64,000 nucleotides of DNA from the NCBI RefSeq assembly GCF_004369205.1, contig NZ_QFGA01000001.1, positions 248,001 to 312,000 of the forward strand, given 5' to 3'. The stretch is from Pelotomaculum schinkii. Its GTDB lineage: Bacteria > Bacillota > Desulfotomaculia > Desulfotomaculales > Pelotomaculaceae. Position 1 is the stretch's first letter. Every line of letters starts with the position of its first letter. Shown in pieces: positions 4,072 to 43,668 of this stretch. The position numbers and the translations under genes were made by a program. The notes beneath the pieces were generated by a model. It made no database searches. It saw only the letters and a program-made list of their open reading frames with translations, and was not told the DNA's origin.

Positions 4072-4155
4072 ACTGTTTTTTGAGGGGATAAATTATAAAA
4101 AATATCGAAATAATTAATGGCAATAATAACCGTGCAATAAACGAGGTGTGCACTT

Positions 4156-6417
4156 TTGTCTAAAATACTCGTGATTGTGGAATCTCCGGCCAAAGCGAAA
4201 ACCATTAGCAAGTTTCTGGGCAAAAAATATTTTGTCAAAGCTTCTATGGGCCATGTCCGAGACTTGCCGAAGAGCCAGTTCGGAGTTGATGTTAAAAACG
4301 GGTTCAGCCCAAAATATATCACTATCAGAGGCAAAGGCGAAACAATTAAAGATTTGAAAACAGCTGTAAAAAAAGCCGACCAGGTGCTGATTGCTTCAGA
4401 CCCTGACCGGGAAGGCGAGGCTATCGCCTGGCATATACAAAAACTTTTGGAAATGGGCGAAGGGGAGCCGTGCCGGATTGAGTTTAACGAGATAACCAAG
4501 CCGGCCGTACAAAAAGCTGTGAACCAGCCCCGGCTGATTGATTATAACCGGGTTAACGCCCAGCAGGCACGGCGTATTCTTGACCGCCTGGTCGGTTATA
4601 ACCTGAGTCCGTTACTGTGGCGTAAGGTAAAGAAAGGCTTGAGCGCCGGCCGCGTTCAATCGGTGGCGGTACGCCTGATTTGCGACCGTGAAGAGGAAAT
4701 CGCTGCTTTCGAGCCTGAAGAATACTGGACGCTCACAGGTCTTTTTGCCAAAACCGGCTACAGCCCCTTTGAGGGAAAGCTCTTTAAATACCAGGACAAA
4801 AAAATAGAGATCAAATCCAGCGCCGAAATGCAGGAGGTCTTGGACAGGCTAAAAGGCGCTCACTACATTGTGAGCAAAATTACCCGCAAAGAAAAATTAC
4901 GCAGGCCGGCCCCGCCTTTTATTACCAGTACCCTGCAGCAAGAGGCCTACCGGAAGTTAAATTACACCGCACGTAAAACCATGATTATAGCCCAACAGCT
5001 TTATGAAGGGCTTGACCTCGGCAAAGAGGGGACGACCGGCCTGATTACCTATATCCGGACTGATTCGGTGCGTGTATCTGAGGTAGCCAGGGAGGAAGCC
5101 CACGGCTATATCAAGGAGCGTTTTGGGGTCCAGTATATTGGCAAAGAAACCCTCAAGTCAGCGGCCAAAGGCAAAATCCAGGATGCGCACGAAGCTATCC
5201 GGCCTACCTCGATTCACCATGAACCGGAACAAATAAAAGCATACCTGACCACTGACCAGTATAAGCTTTACAAGTTAATCTGGTCACGTTATCTGGCGAG
5301 CCTTATGAGCCCTGCCGTCTTTGACACCACCGGTGTGGATATTGCAGCCGGGGAATATGTTTTCCGTGCTTCCGGTTCAATCATCAAATTCGCCGGGTTT
5401 ATGAAGGTCTATATTGAGAGCAGGGATGACGGGGAAAGTGACGAAGAAAAACTTCTCCCGGAACTGGCGGAAGGCGAAGAAGTTGAAGCCAGGTCGCTAC
5501 AACAAAAACAGCATTTTACCCAACCACCGCCACGTTACACCGACGCCACCCTGGTAAAAACCCTGGAAGAAAAAGGGATAGGCAGGCCCAGCACCTATGC
5601 TCCCATAGTAGAAACAATAATTAAAAGGGGTTACATAGTAAGAGAAAACAAACAATTATACCCGACTGAACTGGGTTCAATCGTTATCGACCTTTTAAAA
5701 AAGCACTTCCGGGATATTATTGATGTTGAATTCACTGCCGGCATGGAAAAAAACCTGGACAGTATTGAAGAAGGGGACCTGGAATGGGTTAAAGTTTTAG
5801 CAGCTTTTTACGAGCCTTTTATGGATACCATGGAAAAGGCCGAAAAAGAAATAGGCCATGTACAGGTAACCGATGAAGTAACGGAAGAGATATGCGAGCT
5901 GTGCGGGCGGAACATGGTTAAGAAATTCGGGCGTTTTGGCAAATTTTTGGCCTGCCCCGGTTTTCCCGAATGCCGCAATACCAAGCCTTTGTTGGAACCC
6001 ACCGGCGTGGAATGTCCCCGCTGTGGAGGAGAATTGGTAATCCGTCGTTCCAAAAAAGGCAGGAAGTTTTTCGGTTGCGACCAGTATCCGAAATGTGATT
6101 TTGTCACCTGGGATCAGCCTTCAAAGACTAAGTGTCCCTATTGCGGTGACCTGATGGTGGAGAAAAGAGCCGCCGGCAAGAATATAACACTGAAGTGTAT
6201 AAATGAAAACTGCAGTCAAGGACTGGAGCAAAAAGAAGTCAAGGCTACCAAGGAGGTCAAAGTTTCGAAGGAGAGCAAGGCTTCGAAAGAAACCAGGACT
6301 TCGAAGGATGTGAAGGCGCCAAAAGTGCGCAAGACTTCAAAAGAAACAAAGGCCCGGAAAAAAACAACAGCTGGGCCGGAACAGCTGGGCGCCACAAATG
6401 TCGTTACCGAACAGTGA
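4156..6417 (+). CDS. topA: DNA topoisomerase I (type IA)
   Basis: This 753-residue enzyme relaxes negative supercoils by single-strand cleavage. A Toprim domain opens the protein (VIVESPAKAK with Glu9; DPDREGE at 82-88). The catalytic tyrosine is Tyr299 in LITYIRTDS. Three four-cysteine zinc modules follow from about residue 580 (CELC...CPGFPEC, CPRCGG...CDQYPKC, CPYCG...CINENC). The last 60 residues are an odd lysine-rich tail built of degenerate six-residue units of the type K-E-x-K-x-S. The TTG start follows GAGGTG by seven bases. Confidence 0.96.
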   Translation: MSKILVIVESPAKAKTISKFLGKKYFVKASMGHVRDLPKSQFGVDVKNGFSPKYITIRGKGETIKDLKTAVKKADQVLIASDPDREGEAIAWHIQKLLEMGEGEPCRIEFNEITKPAVQKAVNQPRLIDYNRVNAQQARRILDRLVGYNLSPLLWRKVKKGLSAGRVQSVAVRLICDREEEIAAFEPEEYWTLTGLFAKTGYSPFEGKLFKYQDKKIEIKSSAEMQEVLDRLKGAHYIVSKITRKEKLRRPAPPFITSTLQQEAYRKLNYTARKTMIIAQQLYEGLDLGKEGTTGLITYIRTDSVRVSEVAREEAHGYIKERFGVQYIGKETLKSAAKGKIQDAHEAIRPTSIHHEPEQIKAYLTTDQYKLYKLIWSRYLASLMSPAVFDTTGVDIAAGEYVFRASGSIIKFAGFMKVYIESRDDGESDEEKLLPELAEGEEVEARSLQQKQHFTQPPPRYTDATLVKTLEEKGIGRPSTYAPIVETIIKRGYIVRENKQLYPTELGSIVIDLLKKHFRDIIDVEFTAGMEKNLDSIEEGDLEWVKVLAAFYEPFMDTMEKAEKEIGHVQVTDEVTEEICELCGRNMVKKFGRFGKFLACPGFPECRNTKPLLEPTGVECPRCGGELVIRRSKKGRKFFGCDQYPKCDFVTWDQPSKTKCPYCGDLMVEKRAAGKNITLKCINENCSQGLEQKEVKATKEVKVSKESKASKETRTSKDVKAPKVRKTSKETKARKKTTAGPEQLGATNVVTEQ

Positions 6418-6476
6418 TATTAACAATATGATCACAGTAAATTTTAACTATCAATCTACTATAGTCAGGAGCACGT

Positions 6477-7799
6477 ATGCAAGATAGAACTGTCACCATC
6501 ATCGGGGCCGGCTTGGCAGGTTCGGAGGCGGCCTGGCAGGTAGCCCGGAAGGGGATTAAAGTCAAACTCTACGAAATGCGGCCGGACAAACAGACACCGG
6601 CCCACCGGGGCAGTTTATTTGCGGAATTGGTCTGCAGCAATTCGCTAAGGGCATCCAGCCTGGAGAATGCTGTCGGCCTCTTAAAAGAAGAGATGAGACG
6701 AATGGGTTCCCTGATTATGCGTTGCGCCGACAAATTCAGGGTGCCGGCGGGGGGCGCCCTCGCCGTTGACAGGGAGCTGTTTTCCAGCTGTGTCACCGAG
6801 ACCCTTTACCAACACCCCCTGATCGAAATTTGCCGTACCGAGGTAACCGCCATACCTGAGGACGATACGGTAATCCTGGCCACAGGGCCGCTGACCTCGG
6901 AAGCCATGGCTGAGAACATCAGGCAGTTCAGCGGAGAGGAATACCTTTATTTCTATGACGCAGTCGCCCCAATTGTAAGCGGTGATTCAATAAATATGGA
7001 TCAAGTATTTCGTTCCTCCAGGTACGGGAAAGGTGAGGCCGCCTATTTAAACTGTCCGATGGACGAGGAGCAATACCAAACTTTTTGGGATGCGCTGGTC
7101 AAGGCGGAAAAGGCTCCCCGCAAAGAGTTTGAGCAATCAACGCACTTTGAAGGATGTCTGCCTGTTGAGGTACTCGCCGCCCGTGGAAAAGATACTCTTC
7201 TTTACGGACCCTTAAAGCCGGTGGGCCTCATTGACCCCAAAACGGGCAAGCGGCCTTTTGCCGTGGTCCAGTTGCGGCAGGAGAACGCGGACGCTACCAT
7301 GTACAACCTGGTTGGATTTCAGACCGGTTTAAAATGGAGCGAGCAAACGCGGGTATTCCGCCTCATACCAGGACTGGAAAAGGCTGAGTTTCTGCGGCTT
7401 GGAGTGATGCACAGAAATACCTATATCAATTCACCGGCGCTTTTAAATCCTACTTATGAGAGTAAAAAAAGGCCCGGGCTCTTCTTTGCCGGGCAGCTTA
7501 CCGGAGTTGAGGGGTACGTGGAATCATCGGCCGCCGGGTTGGTCGCCGGGATTAATGCTGCGCGGAGGGCCGCAGGTAAAGAGACGCTGGCCTTTCCGGG
7601 AGATACCGGTCACGGTTCTCTTGCCCATTACATAACTTCCGCCGATCCGGCTCATTTTCAGCCGATGAATATTTCTTTTGGCCTTTTTCCACCCCTGGAT
7701 CATAAAATCCGGGATAAAAAGGAGCGATACAGGTTAATCGCCCAAAGATCACTTGAATCACTTTCAGCATTTATTAATAACATTTACATATCATTGTAA
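6477..7799 (+). CDS. trmFO: Folate/FAD-dependent tRNA (uracil-54-C5) methyltransferase TrmFO
   Basis: TrmFO makes ribothymidine at tRNA position 54 using methylenetetrahydrofolate and reduced FAD. The 440-residue protein begins with the FAD-binding motif [13 protein letters not shown] and carries the family signatures [16 protein letters not shown] and [19 protein letters not shown]. Length is normal for the family. AGGAGC lies seven bases before the ATG. The gene sits between topA and xerC exactly as in Bacillus, where it was called gid. Confidence 0.95.
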
Positions 7800-7876
7800 C
7801 AACAGGGTTGTCCCCCGCTATCGTGGCGCCAGGAAAGAACGAGACGAAACGGTTTCGGTGCGATTTCAATCGCATA

Positions 7877-7946
7877 CGGCGCGGCAGCGCCGGACTTGTG
7901 TGGCCAATGCAGCATTGTGCGAATGAATCCACACCTGCATTTTCAG
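7877..7946 (+). repeat. Structured dispersed repeat, copy A
   Basis: About 70 bases carry two potential hairpins. The first is CGGCGC-GGCA-GCGCCG. The second is a weaker palindrome, GTGCGAAT-GA-ATCCACAC, followed by CTGCATTTTCAG. A closely similar copy lies on the opposite strand at 60898-60969 and a copy of the second half at 58191-58221. Another palindrome, TGCGATTTCAATCGCA, lies just upstream near 7859-7874. The repeat lies wholly in the gap between trmFO and the chosen xerC start. Confidence 0.6.
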
Positions 7947-7988
7947 GATAGCGAACGCGTCAATCCTGCCGGGAGTAGGTTTTCGAGT

Positions 7989-8966
7989 ATGTACAGTCAT
8001 TTTGATAACTTTTTAGTTTATCTGAAAGTGGAAAAGAACGCGTCCCCAAGGACTATAGAAAGCTACCAGAAGGACTTCTTCCAGGGGTTGGATTTTTTTG
8101 CTTCTTACTTGAAGAAAAAAGACCATGCTGTTGAACCAAAGGACCTCGACCACAGTATTTTCAGACTCTACCTGGGCCAGATGCAGGAACAAGGGCTGGC
8201 CAGGACCACCATGGCCAGGCGCCTTGCGGCATGGCGTTCCCTGTACCGTTATCTGAAGCGGGAGAATATCGTTGACGACAATCCCGCAGCCAGGGTCGCC
8301 AGCCCCAGACTTAAGAAAGGGTTGCCTTCTTTCTTATACGAGAATGAGATTGCCCAACTGATCGAGGCGCCTGATTTAACCCACCCGCTTGGTGTCAGGG
8401 ACCGGGCGCTGCTGGAAACGCTTTATGCCGCCGGTCTAAGGATTCATGAACTGGTATCCCTTGACTTGGCCGACCTTGATCTTGGCTCCGGCTATGTGCG
8501 GGTAATGGGAAAAAGAGCAAAAGAGAGGCTGTCGCCCATCGGCATAGAGGCCGTTACAGCTTTGCGCAGGTACCTGGCCGGTTCACGCCAGAGGCTTTTG
8601 GCAAACGCTAAACCCGCCAAAAATAAGAGCCAAGCCAACCCTGCGTCAGCCAGCGCGGTAATGCCCGGGCCGCAAAAAATCAGCGGCGCGGTATTTCTTA
8701 ACCGGTGGGGGGAGAGGCTCACGGAGCGGGGCGTGCGGAAAATCCTGAACAAATATGTGGAAGAGGTCAGCCTGGAAAGAAAGGTCAGCCCGCACACACT
8801 GAGACACTCTTTTGCCACACACCTGCTTAACGCGGGGGCTGACCTTCGCGCTGTACAGGAACTGCTCGGACATACATGCCTTTCCAGCACCCAGGTCTAT
8901 ACCCATGTTACGGGCGAAAGATTGAAAAAAGTATACCAGAGCGCCCACCCCAGGGCAAAAGAGTAA
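7989..8966 (+). CDS. xerC: Tyrosine recombinase XerC (CodV-like)
   Basis: XerC-type recombinases resolve chromosome dimers at dif. The 325-residue protein has an N-terminal SAM-like DNA-binding domain and a C-terminal catalytic domain with Arg151 (AAGLRIHEL), His269 and Arg272 (HTLRHSF), His295 (LLGH) and the nucleophile Tyr304 (TQVYTHV). Between about residues 200 and 233 there is an Ala/Lys/Asn/Pro-rich insertion not seen in compact XerC proteins. The ATG at 7989 is chosen because earlier in-frame starts would read through the dispersed repeat and give an N-terminus unlike the family. A GGGAG about 13 bases upstream is a weak ribosome site. Confidence 0.88.
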   Translation: MYSHFDNFLVYLKVEKNASPRTIESYQKDFFQGLDFFASYLKKKDHAVEPKDLDHSIFRLYLGQMQEQGLARTTMARRLAAWRSLYRYLKRENIVDDNPAARVASPRLKKGLPSFLYENEIAQLIEAPDLTHPLGVRDRALLETLYAAGLRIHELVSLDLADLDLGSGYVRVMGKRAKERLSPIGIEAVTALRRYLAGSRQRLLANAKPAKNKSQANPASASAVMPGPQKISGAVFLNRWGERLTERGVRKILNKYVEEVSLERKVSPHTLRHSFATHLLNAGADLRAVQELLGHTCLSSTQVYTHVTGERLKKVYQSAHPRAKE

Positions 8967-9019
8967 GTATAGAGCATACATGCTGCTAATAAAGCTGAAA
9001 GATGAAAAGGAGAAACCAT

Positions 9020-40513: not shown

Positions 40514-40849
40514 ATGTTAAGCGGGATAATTCTCATTATCGTAATCTTATTTCTGGTGAGTATATCAGTCCGGGAGCGTATCCTGCTGTACAAGTACCGG
40601 GAAAAGGATTGGAGCTCTATTGGTGAAGCAAAGTCAAGTCCTCTATCGCAAGCTCTGGCAAACCTGGTCGGGGTTGCCGGCGGCATTTATATTTCCCTGG
40701 TGGTTATAGCCACTTTTATGGAAGTTCAGCTGCCTGAGCGTATTTACCTGGGAGGGCTCAGCATGGAACCATTGGCTTTTGTGTCCATTTTAATGGCTGT
40801 CGCCCAACCATACATGCAAAGAATTATTAATGCTTGGAGAAGAATATAA
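40514..40849 (+). CDS. Small membrane protein, function unknown
   Basis: The 111-residue protein is not recognised. It has three hydrophobic segments: residues 4-20 (IILIIVILFLV), about 50-72 (VGVAGGIYISLVVIATF) and 85-102 (PLAFVSILMAVAQPYM), with a charged loop RERILLYKYREKDW between the first two. The ATG at 40514 follows GGGGTGA by about five bases; a GTG at 40505 overlaps that site. It is followed 25 bases later by ymxH, probably in one transcript. Confidence 0.8.
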   Translation: MLSGIILIIVILFLVSISVRERILLYKYREKDWSSIGEAKSSPLSQALANLVGVAGGIYISLVVIATFMEVQLPERIYLGGLSMEPLAFVSILMAVAQPYMQRIINAWRRI

Positions 40850-40874
40850 TTAAGATAATAAGGAGGACCTTCTA

Positions 40875-41150
40875 GTGCGGATGGGTGAACTTGCCGGTAA
40901 GGAAATTGTAAATTTATATAACGGGTCGCGTCTTGGCGTGGTGGGAGAATCCGACCTGATCCTGGACACAGAATCGGGGGAAATCCGTTCAATTATCCTG
41001 CCCAAGAAAAACAACCTGATTAATATCTGGATCGATAGACAGCACCTGGTTATACCCTGGGAAGCGATCAGAAAGGTTGGCGCGGAGGTTATTATTGTCG
41101 ATTTAGATCAGACAAGTCCAAGTTACCAGCGATACAGCTCGAACTTTTAA
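40875..41150 (+). CDS. ymxH: YlmC/YmxH-family PRC-barrel sporulation protein
   Basis: This 91-residue protein belongs to the YlmC/YmxH family, a single PRC-barrel domain linked to sporulation genes. It shows LAGKEIVNLYNGSRLG, a central LDTESGEIRSIILP, and PWEAIRKVGAEVIIVDL at the end. The GTG start follows AAGGAGG by eight bases. In Bacillus ymxH sits just before spoVFA (dpaA); here an inserted segment with a MITE-like repeat, an SDH-family protease and dapB lies between. Confidence 0.88.
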   Translation: MRMGELAGKEIVNLYNGSRLGVVGESDLILDTESGEIRSIILPKKNNLINIWIDRQHLVIPWEAIRKVGAEVIIVDLDQTSPSYQRYSSNF

Positions 41151-41169
41151 AAACATCTGGGGTAGGGGG

Positions 41170-41342
41170 CAGGGGGTTATCCTCCGCTCTCTGCGCAATT
41201 CTACATTTCAGTAAGACAACATTACATCGACCGCATCTACAGACAGCCATGCGGTACCTACGCGCTATTTAAGCTTTTCTGCAAGCTATGCACGCGCTAA
41301 GGAACGCATCCAAGTGCTCCGTTCGCTGCGGATAACCCCCTG
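41170..41342 (-). repeat. MITE-like element, copy 2 (inverted relative to copy 1)
   Basis: The 173-bp segment is bounded by CAGGGGGTTATCC and its exact reverse complement. Reversed, it aligns end to end with 1518-1693. It fills the first half of the 365-base gap between ymxH and the SDH-family gene. Sequence right of it (TGCCCGCAAGTC) also matches the flank of copy 1, so the true element may be about 13 bases longer. No gene lies in the rest of the gap apart from the hairpin at 41393. Confidence 0.65.
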
Positions 41343-41392
41343 CCCGCAAGTCGGGTCTTTTTGAAAGCATTTCTAATATGCATTAACTAATC

Positions 41393-41416
41393 CTCCATGC
41401 TGGTCATGGAGTTTTT
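41393..41416 (+). terminator. Terminator-like hairpin before the SDH-family gene
   Basis: CTCCATG pairs with CATGGAG around CTGGT and runs into TTTTT. It would end the membrane protein-ymxH transcript after the MITE-like element. Confidence 0.7.
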
Positions 41417-41515
41417 GTGTGCGTAGTTAAGGTCAAACTTAAATTATTTTGATTGTTATTAATCCAGGCTGAAATGGCATAATAAACGTGTTGACAAAAT
41501 AACCGGAGGCGTAAC

Positions 41516-42502
41516 ATGGCCCGTGAACAAAGGGTTGCGTTAATCAAAAAAATATCTGAGCTTAGAGGTTCTAAACTGCTTTGCTATATCACCGGCGACC
41601 GTGAGAACGTCAACACCAGGATTGCCCCGGATGTTACGCCGGTCTTCTACAGGCATCTGGAAATGTTTGGTGAATGCAAGCAAATTGACCTGTTTCTGTA
41701 TACAAGGGGGGGGGACGTCCTAACGCCGTGGCGTCTGGCTCATCTGATTAGAGAATATACCAATCGTTTTGCTGTTCTGGTGCCATTTCGTTGCTACAGC
41801 GCCGGAACTCTCTTGTGTCTGGGAGCGGATGAAATAGTGATGGGTAAAATGAGTGAACTTGGGCCAATTGACCCCAGCGTTGTGAATGCTTTTAATCCAC
41901 AGGATCCCAATAACCCTGCTGCTAAGATTCCTGTGAATATTGAAGATGTCTATTCGTACCTTGCCCTGGCCGGTGAAAAAGCCGGTGTATGCAGCACCGA
42001 CCAGCAGGTTAAGGCTTTTACCCTGCTGGCAGAACGTATTCACCCGCTGGCTTTGGGAAATGTGCACCGAAATTATCTGTTGATCAGGTCACTGGCTAAA
42101 AAAATGCTTGCGTTGCACCACTTGCCTCTGAAAGAAGGACGCATTGAACACATTGTGGACAATCTCACTGAAAAACTATATGCGCATAACCATATGATTT
42201 CCCGTCGGGAAGCTATGGACGAGATTAACCTGGCTGTATCAATACCGGACACAAGCTTTGAACCGTTGATGTGGTCATTATACCAGGACTACGCCGAAGA
42301 GTTGGCCTTGTCTGAGCCATTTAATCCGTCTGAAAAGCTTATAGGGGCCAAGACTGAATTTGAGGTGGTTAGCGGATACGTTGAATCGATGCAGGGCGCA
42401 GACGCTTTTGTTTTTTCGGGTGTGGTCGAAAAGCGTGATTTTCCCGAGGCCAGCCAGGTAAACGTAAGCATACTTAAACAGGGGTGGAAAACAATATCAT
42501 AA
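41516..42502 (+). CDS. SDH-family ClpP-fold serine protease (SppA-like, cytoplasmic)
   Basis: The 328-residue protein belongs to the serine dehydrogenase proteinase (SDH_sah) family of the ClpP/crotonase fold. The oxyanion strand YTRGGDVLTPW is followed by the nucleophile Ser95 in CYSAGTLLCLGADEIVMG, and by SELGPIDPSV, which carries the conserved Asp. A helical insertion (about 150-240) and a C-terminal extension complete it. There is no signal or membrane helix, unlike SppA. Substrate is unknown. ACCGGAGGC lies before the ATG. A 56-residue gene starts 16 bases after its stop. Confidence 0.83.
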   Translation: MAREQRVALIKKISELRGSKLLCYITGDRENVNTRIAPDVTPVFYRHLEMFGECKQIDLFLYTRGGDVLTPWRLAHLIREYTNRFAVLVPFRCYSAGTLLCLGADEIVMGKMSELGPIDPSVVNAFNPQDPNNPAAKIPVNIEDVYSYLALAGEKAGVCSTDQQVKAFTLLAERIHPLALGNVHRNYLLIRSLAKKMLALHHLPLKEGRIEHIVDNLTEKLYAHNHMISRREAMDEINLAVSIPDTSFEPLMWSLYQDYAEELALSEPFNPSEKLIGAKTEFEVVSGYVESMQGADAFVFSGVVEKRDFPEASQVNVSILKQGWKTIS

Positions 42503-42518
42503 TGGGAGATGAATATGC

Positions 42519-42689
42519 ATGGAAGAAAGCCGGACAGCCTTTGATAACAAGAAATTGCATTTTAATTATTATACAGATACCACAAAGTATTATCTTTTGA
42601 CAGGCGGGTCTGGTTACCCGCTGGCTGATTTCGATTTTTCCAATATCCCTTCACTAAAGCAAACCAGCTTTGTAATACCTAAAAAATAG
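42519..42689 (+). CDS. 56-residue protein of unknown function
   Basis: This short gene is not recognised. It is preceded by GGGAGATGA at about eight bases, uses an ATG, and lies 16 bases after the SDH-family protease, so the two are probably co-transcribed. The product is rich in Tyr, Phe and Thr (FNYYTDTTKYYLLTGG, ADFDFSNIPSL) with no signal or membrane segment. The final KK and the lack of low-complexity sequence are compatible with a small folded or partner protein. It could be a substrate or regulator of the protease; nothing in the sequence proves this. Confidence 0.6.
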   Translation: MEESRTAFDNKKLHFNYYTDTTKYYLLTGGSGYPLADFDFSNIPSLKQTSFVIPKK

Positions 42690-42864
42690 TGCATGCTTGT
42701 CTAATTTCATAAAACACAACACCGTCCTGACTGTTTCTATACAGGGCTATTTTGTTTTCAAGTCCTGAATTAATATTGACATAAACAATTATATATAAGA
42801 AAATTAATTTTAAAAGTCAAAGGGGTTTCTTCTTTCGGGATTAGCTGCTTAAAGGAGGCATACT

Positions 42865-43668
42865 ATGATTAAAGTTATCGTCACCGGGGCTTATGGAAAG
42901 ATGGGCCGTGAGGTGGTGAAATCGGTCCTGCGAACCGAAGATATAGAACTTGTCGGAGCAGTCGACAGTGTTGGTGAGGGTACAGATGTAGGTTCACTGG
43001 CCGAAGCAGGCAGTACAGGGATAATTATTGAAAAGGATCTTGAAGAAGTGCTGACGCGGGTACGTCCTGACGCAGCAGTGGACTTTACCGGTCCACATTC
43101 TGTTTACAATAACACGATGATCTACCTCAAGCACCGGGTCCGCCCGGTCATTGGAACGACCGGCTTAAGTCCGGAGCAAATCAATGATATTGTCGCATAT
43201 TCGGAGAATCTGGGAGTAGGTGGATTAATAGCGCCCAACGTTGCTATCGGAGCTCTGTTGATGATGAAGTTTGCGGCAGAAGCATCCCGTCATTTCCCCC
43301 ATGTTGAAATTATCGAACTGCACCACGATCAGAAACTGGATGCGCCTTCGGGCACGGCTATTAAAACGGCCGAAGCTATTATTGAACAGAGGGGTACGGA
43401 AATCCAGCAGGGTTCGGCAATGGAGGTTGAAAGATTGGCCGGAGCGAGAGGCGGAGAATTTGCCGGGGGTATACGCATTCACAGCGTAAGGCTTCCAGGG
43501 TTGGTGGCGCACCAGGAAGTGATCTTCGGAGGACTCGGCCAGACTCTGACCATCAGGCATGATTCAATAACCCGGGAATCTTTTATGCCCGGTGTATTGT
43601 TGGGTATTCGCAAGGTAATGCGTCTTGAAAGGGTGGTTTATGGATTAGACCGGTTGCTCTTTGAATAA
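42865..43668 (+). CDS. dapB: 4-hydroxy-tetrahydrodipicolinate reductase
   Basis: DapB reduces dihydrodipicolinate with NAD(P)H in lysine and meso-diaminopimelate synthesis. The 267-residue protein begins with VTGAYGKMGREVV, shows VDFTGPHSV and GTTGLS, and carries the catalytic ELHHDQKLDAPSGTA. AAGGAGG precedes the ATG. A TTGACA at 42776 has no -10 box at proper spacing, so the promoter is not clear. It lies next to dpaA, which competes for the same intermediate during sporulation. Confidence 0.96.
   Translation: MIKVIVTGAYGKMGREVVKSVLRTEDIELVGAVDSVGEGTDVGSLAEAGSTGIIIEKDLEEVLTRVRPDAAVDFTGPHSVYNNTMIYLKHRVRPVIGTTGLSPEQINDIVAYSENLGVGGLIAPNVAIGALLMMKFAAEASRHFPHVEIIELHHDQKLDAPSGTAIKTAEAIIEQRGTEIQQGSAMEVERLAGARGGEFAGGIRIHSVRLPGLVAHQEVIFGGLGQTLTIRHDSITRESFMPGVLLGIRKVMRLERVVYGLDRLLFE

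Follow-up and report, generated by a model that had tools for sequence, protein, structure and literature searches.

The question raised by this locus is whether a short reading frame lying directly behind a protease gene, between ymxH and dapB, is a gene at all and, if it is, whether its product works together with the protease. In the window, which is the whole 64,000-nucleotide stretch of Pelotomaculum schinkii DNA analyzed here, the insert is bordered upstream by ymxH (40875-41150, TIGR02888 match) and downstream by dapB (42865-43668). It holds a gene for an SDH-family serine protease of predicted ClpP fold and long form (41516-42502, plus strand; 328 amino acids [aa], PF01972), which carries an additional beta region at the C terminus, and a small companion gene (42519-42689, plus strand; 56 aa, core KYYLLTGGSGYPLADF...FVIP) with homologous frames behind SDH genes elsewhere. 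The coordinates, the strand, Ser95 in the motif CYSAG, the 16-base gap between the genes, and the 56-codon frame all agree with an earlier note on this DNA, which had proposed a new module of an orphan protease and a dedicated small partner or substrate. In Bacillus, where ymxH precedes spoVFA, this joint is not known to hold any gene.

The distribution of the small gene was analyzed in related genomes. With the 56 residues as query, a match was found in 43 of 60 related genomes at E up to 1, and the strong matches lay directly behind SDH, except in G018, where the match is at the start of another contig. In a class-wide search of 113 genomes, SDH matched 72 and a profile of the small gene matched 69, all of them SDH genomes apart from one weak outlier (G023, E 0.028), which falls within a long frame of an SDH-less genome and was taken as chance. 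Four SDH genomes gave no match to the profile: G090 and G091, in which a diverged frame is nonetheless present at the correct place; G041, which lacks the small gene and retains a truncated SDH of 189 matched residues; and G111, in which a 41%-identical SDH stands in another gene setting, again with no small gene. Among the 60 loci examined from the 73 SDH places in the class, a homologous frame follows SDH directly in 57, including two (L093 and L094) counted by place and alignment with scores of only E 0.35 and 0.15. The three other loci are L095 (G111), L096 (G041), and L137, which is cut by a contig edge. A usable start is present in 56 of the 57 frames, and the frame in L106 has no common start codon.

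In near relatives, the core of the small protein reads KYYLLTxGSGYPxAEF...LVIPE, and two alignment columns are invariant across the 57 proteins. Of 19 hand-chosen pairs, 18 gave a dN/dS ratio of 0.07 to 0.29 and one was saturated; the window gene gave 0.13 and 0.22 against two genus mates. The small gene starts at a median of 35.5 bases behind the SDH stop (range, -20 to 221). A ribosome site of its own, claimed for it earlier, is indeed present but modest in the window, with GGGAG (42504-42508, plus strand) 10 bases before the ATG; the genus mates L133 and L134 show GGGAG at a similar spacing. In relatives, five or more of the six AGGAGG positions match at 41 of 56 starts, compared with 15% in shuffles, in a tally for which the starts were chosen partly by that same score. 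The window's 56-aa form is short for its family, and its C-terminal tail is shorter than in most same-family relatives: the proteins have 63 to 79 aa in 14 of 15 same-family loci (L133 to L136 and L138 to L148), the other one also having 56, and the range across all class loci is 51 to 96 aa. Searched alone, the small frame matched no Pfam or NCBIfam family at E 1, and 20 of its relatives pointed to no convincing family, with one-member matches at E 0.03 or worse; a gene of this kind, lacking a family model in both collections, may be missed by length filters. A chance origin of the 56-codon frame, as its shortness, its modest ribosome site in the window, and the missing family model might suggest, is so improbable in view of its conservation behind SDH inside and outside the class and of the dN/dS values that this reading was set aside, and on comparative sequence grounds the small frame is a real gene. 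A 31-codon alternative frame starting at 42501 (TAATG) was dropped once the frame at 42519 proved conserved.

The next point is whether the small gene belongs to the protease or to the neighborhood. Most of the 60 class loci share the gene order dut, duf114, ymxH, SDH, small gene, dapB, dpaA, dpaB, and asd. In 23 genomes with a long SDH outside the class, no tblastn match to those neighbors was found at E 1e-4 within about 5 kb on either side. Of the 23 out-of-class loci, 22 were scored; the remaining one is cut off by a contig edge. A class-only profile beat the best of 63 control stretches at 19 of these 22 loci, and a profile with outside members did so at 21, eight of the loci coming from the same genomes as the seeds of that profile; the last locus (L223) matches by eye. 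The small gene is thus present without the ymxH-dapB neighbors and tracks the protease, not the neighborhood. In a set of 80 named loci, kept from 292 in a genome scan, the class-only profile beat all controls in 70, a profile combining class and outside members in 76, and the outside-only profile in 78, the two remaining loci being L237 at a contig edge and L296, which matches by eye. With the 11 profile-seeding loci left out, the outside-only profile succeeded in 67 of 69. This tally overlaps with that of the class search, as most of the class genomes in the named set had also entered the latter. The names include Pelotomaculum, Desulfotruncus, Desulfoscipio, Desulfofundulus, Moorella, Fuchsiella, Natroniella, Candidatus Frackibacter, and Dethiobacter. 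Looking for the 56-aa frame beside orthologous proteases, the check proposed in the earlier note, therefore brought no refutation, and the word "dedicated" is well supported by genomics, the frame being tied to long SDH inside and outside the class.

The protease of the window matched PF01972 with 50.8 bits (E 1.6e-13, residues 45 to 129; gathering cutoff, 31.3) and stayed below the cutoff of 250 bits for the equivalog NF047768 Clp_like_SDH with 65.7 bits, as did three relatives with 56.6, 60.2, and 80.6 bits, which points to a distinct long form. It is the sole SDH match in its genome. The protein resembles PF01972 and NF047768 in the ClpP-like core and the Ser95 region and differs from the PF01972 family in the added C-terminal beta region and the near-constant small neighbor gene. 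Residues G65, G66, S95, D119, and H224 are among those invariant in 12 long, short, and diverged members, and their catalytic roles are those that we infer from the ClpP fold. The fold was modeled on a read-through chain of the relative L144, not on the window protein, with a mean pLDDT of 82.5. This model matched ClpP and a stomatin-specific protease at Z 11.9, mostly over residues 1 to 252, with a root mean square deviation (RMSD) of 3.4 to 3.8 over 176 to 179 aligned residues in the top four rows, and the best Foldseek matches were ClpP and SppA at modest E values from 8.4e-5. By this model, the long SDH is a predicted ClpP-fold protease of clan SK. The C-terminal strands (residues 284 to 334 of the L144 model) lie mostly outside the fold matches, and no solved structure related by sequence was found at E 0.1.

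ClpP, the protease with AAA+ partners, shares the fold over model residues 1 to 252 (Z up to 11.9), whereas sequence identity to the model is only 9 to 18% in the matched rows, and the invariant His of SDH occupies a different chain position from that in ClpP. No ATPase gene was noticed among the neighboring genes inspected. The best-tied match was the stomatin-specific protease 1510-N of the NfeD type (6m4b_A, Z 11.9, RMSD 3.6, 176 aligned residues); structure titles give solved mutants S97A and K138A of it, while the long SDH alignments hold no invariant Lys. A likeness to the germination protease Gpr, a spore protease, would follow only if the forespore reading set out below is right. A run of nine G (41706-41714) occupies the SDH codons for R64-G65-G66-D67 in the presumed active-site loop and could be prone to slippage; nine G are also present in L121, L133, and L134, and two to seven in the other 57 of the 60 loci.

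Genes for Hsp20 proteins (Pfam PF00011), which are stress chaperones in general, adjoin the pair in out-of-class loci. Eight of 10 neighbor proteins submitted matched PF00011 with 27.8 to 58.2 bits (gathering cutoff, 20.8), the other two being a 2-thiouracil desulfurase and a cNMP-binding regulator, and the assignment of further Hsp20 members rests on our own profile of ten proteins from seven loci. In the flanking DNA of the 80 named loci, at least one Hsp20 gene was found in 34, two in 28, and none in 46, and wherever found, these genes were on the strand opposite SDH. Among the 24 named loci assigned to the out-of-class group by identity and title, 22 had Hsp20, the exceptions being L292 and L300, the latter named Moorella thermoacetica; the count was 15 of 17 outside the seeds of the Hsp20 profile. 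In the phylum sample, which overlaps the named set, Hsp20 was found in 15 of 23 loci, with two genes in 14, and the eight loci without it include three of genus g68 (L213, L216, and L220) and one at a contig edge (L226). Outside the class, the two genes are either both downstream, at 215 to 620 and 708 to 1094 bases, or both upstream, at 74 to 174 and 529 to 792 bases.

Inside the class, an Hsp20 match was obtained in 14 of the 60 loci, some Pelotomaculum being among the bearers, and loci with one gene per side carry them between ymxH and SDH and between the small gene and dapB (e.g., L242, L248, and L249). Just a 29-bit remnant is left in L243 of Pelotomaculum terephthalicicum. In the window, no Hsp20 genes were found beside the pair, and the three Hsp20 matches elsewhere in its genome are two ordinary Hsp20 proteins and a diverged one. 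The description of the protease as an orphan has to be amended, since two Hsp20 genes flank the pair in many relatives, though not in the window. A four-gene unit was probably placed between ymxH and dapB, with the Hsp20 genes then lost in many lines, including that of the window. Spore chaperones of the CotM-CotP type are likewise Hsp20 proteins and may be the nearest known counterparts of the flanking genes. In seven loci (L296, L298, L299, L305, L308, L312, and L313), the DNA ahead of one Hsp20 gene, GGGTGAAAGCAAGG-like, is complementary to the CCTTGCTTTCACCC-like DNA of the other, and by eye these stretches form an inverted repeat around an Hsp20 gene.

Upstream of the pair, a putative promoter (41455-41484, plus strand) consists of GTTAT (41455-41459), 18 bases, and CATAATA (41478-41484), the latter ending 31 bases ahead of the SDH start. 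The box CATA[AC]TA, a -10 box of the sigma-G type in Bacillus, occurred in the 110 bases ahead of SDH in 35 of 61 class loci, compared with 1.2 in shuffles, and before 6 of the 304 other genes in these loci; because of common ancestry among the loci, the counts are not independent. SASP genes are sigma-G genes in Bacillus, and in a positive control with same-family SASP genes found by tblastn, the box was present in 16 of 26, compared with 0.92 in shuffles. An earlier SASP control by regular expression had recovered 3 of 26 genes, none with the box. The -35 part differs, with GCATA at 17 to 18 bases in SASP genes and, by eye, GTNAT at 18 to 19 bases in Pelotomaculum-like SDH loci, in which the form CATACTA is frequent. 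For the window, the -10 box of the sigma-G type was found (41478-41484) and the SASP-type -35 was not, so that the likeness to the sigma-G regulon lies in the -10 alone and no membership is claimed.

Outside the class, CATA[AC]TA was found upstream of SDH in 3 of 24 loci and the form GGN1-2ATA[AC]TA in 14 of 24, compared with 0.28 in shuffles, the latter being weaker evidence because the pattern was framed after the sequences had been viewed. Upstream of Hsp20 genes, CATA[AC]TA was present in 16 of 61 cases (1.6 in shuffles) and the GG form in 4 of 61 (0.8 in shuffles), so that both forms are enriched but missing from most cases. With the -35 fixed, a sigma-F/G pattern gave 4 of 60, compared with 0.92 in shuffles, and was replaced by the -10 box alone. 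The sigma-F promoter given in PMC4383634, GTATA and GGGGAGGCTA, is just loosely like the SDH and Hsp20 boxes.

The reality of the small gene, its tight linkage to the protease in different settings, the joint decay described below, the Hsp20 neighborhood, the catalytic residues, and the enrichment of the box form the observed basis of the reading that we prefer. Protease and small partner would make up one functional unit, whose most likely site of production is the forespore and whose task would be protein quality control, either within the spore or during germination; we hold this to be probable, with a good measure of doubt. The absence of Hsp20 from the window and many relatives, the differing -35, and the locus L095 speak against it.

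The strongest competitor, with an appreciable though minor chance of being right, is a vegetative stress-response protease working with small heat shock proteins and having no special spore link. The sequence CATAAT also resembles a sigma-A -10, Hsp20 proteins serve general stress responses, and spoIVA, although found in all 29 long-SDH genomes of the phylum sample, occurs in 336 of 398 genomes anyway, which leaves its association with SDH weak. A site scan of the window, however, listed no sigma-70-like site between ymxH and SDH, and the frequency of CATACTA in Pelotomaculum-like loci, together with a box common to SASP genes, favors a spore link; the box also lends indirect support to expression in sporulation, as considered in the earlier note.

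Linkage of the small gene to the long SDH was further analyzed in exceptional loci. The small gene was found in none of six loci with short SDHs that end before the C-terminal region, nor was it found in the diverged L227 (39%-identical SDH). In G041 (L096, 3214-4108), SDH is truncated, with a scrap of its C-terminal end left ahead of dapB in a different frame, and no small gene remains; this is joint decay of the pair. G108 carries two SDH-small gene pairs (L097 and L098), with Hsp20 genes found beside L097 and not L098. L095 (G111) speaks against a strict rule that a long SDH comes with a small gene: its SDH, 41% identical, is long and includes the C-terminal region, yet no small gene is present. 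At L095 (2062-5509), SDH stands directly beside a frame that reads by eye like a type I restriction-modification methylase or specificity gene, and this diverged locus is the only one adjoining such a frame. A defence role was considered and dropped: PADLOC returned no families for four proteins at E 0.01, with no family for the L095 SDH. In L227 (G250, 4116-9000), a 449-codon SDH-like frame lies near flagellar-like frames, as read by eye.

Gene linkage can also reflect shared regulation. The small protein might be a spore protein in its own right, sharing a transcript with the protease but never touching it, a reading that we regard as unlikely. It would suit the spore-type box ahead of the transcription unit and a product that is small, tyrosine-rich, and poorly structured in prediction, but it fits less well with a pair that is kept in different settings, is present twice in one genome, decayed jointly in G041, and was not found with short SDHs.

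Structure models said little about contact. Alone, the small protein was predicted by AlphaFold as a tyrosine-rich chain with two short strands, at a low confidence (pLDDT 61.8); when modeled as part of a read-through chain with SDH, it reached a pLDDT of 43 to 71 and gave no usable sign of docking. Two conserved short strands with otherwise little structure, in close pairing with one protease type, would also be expected of a substrate or inhibitor of the protease, comparable to a cognate pro-peptide or an antidote. We judge this distinctly unlikely, as the tail is variable in length and short in the window and no conserved cleavage-like site was recognized by eye.

Under the preferred reading of a spore quality-control unit, the ancestral form probably comprised four genes: those of the protease and its small partner and, on the opposite strand, a pair for Hsp20 holdases. 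The small protein, once translated, would probably bind the protease, with the additional C-terminal beta region of the small-gene-bearing proteases as a possible site, and may act as an adaptor, a switch, or a regulator of SDH activity. Hsp20 would keep misfolded or no longer needed spore proteins soluble, and SDH would remove them. The groove of Hsp20 normally takes an IXI/V tail. A bolder version, which we rate as a long shot, is an ATP-independent relay from chaperone to protease in the dormant or waking spore: the Hsp20 proteins would hold clients, the conserved hydrophobic strand of the small protein (LVIPE, IIVSE, or LVIRD) would dock in the Hsp20 groove and its tyrosine strand at the C-terminal region of SDH, no AAA+ motor would take part, and in the lineage of the window, the pair would act on other clients after the loss of Hsp20.

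The protease itself belongs to the known family PF01972, which is sparsely covered in the literature searched. Neither the family of small genes nor its close pairing with SDH nor the Hsp20 neighbors were met in that literature, which took in few of the subscription journals, and no title found there tied an SDH protease to Hsp20 or to a small partner. The near-constant small gene and the frequent Hsp20 flanks suggest an unrecognized protein-care kit for the spores of spore-forming anaerobes. The paired small protein and the two chaperone genes offer a first handle on the role of SDH, testable in culturable Moorella, and if the spore reading is true, they add a protease-chaperone unit to the known systems of protein care in spores.

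The DNA between ymxH and SDH holds further features, which the earlier note had reported ahead of the pair as a MITE-like element and a terminator, and the element was confirmed. The MITE-like element (41167-41345) has a 16-base perfect inverted repeat at its ends (41167-41182 and 41330-41345) and 34 further copies of at least 140 bases in the genome, with 79 to 86% identity. Terminator-like hairpins lie at 41393-41411 and 41342-41356, and five such sites were found in 40700-43000, compared with 2.1 expected. The element and the terminators look incidental to the pair, and the element is not part of the module. A second copy is located in the window at 1496-1701 on the minus strand, and several of the genomic copies are arranged as twins or a triplet, 56 to 102 bases apart. 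In the genus mate L133, the gap between ymxH and SDH contains a match to the right half of the element and its flank, with 80% identity over 174 bases.
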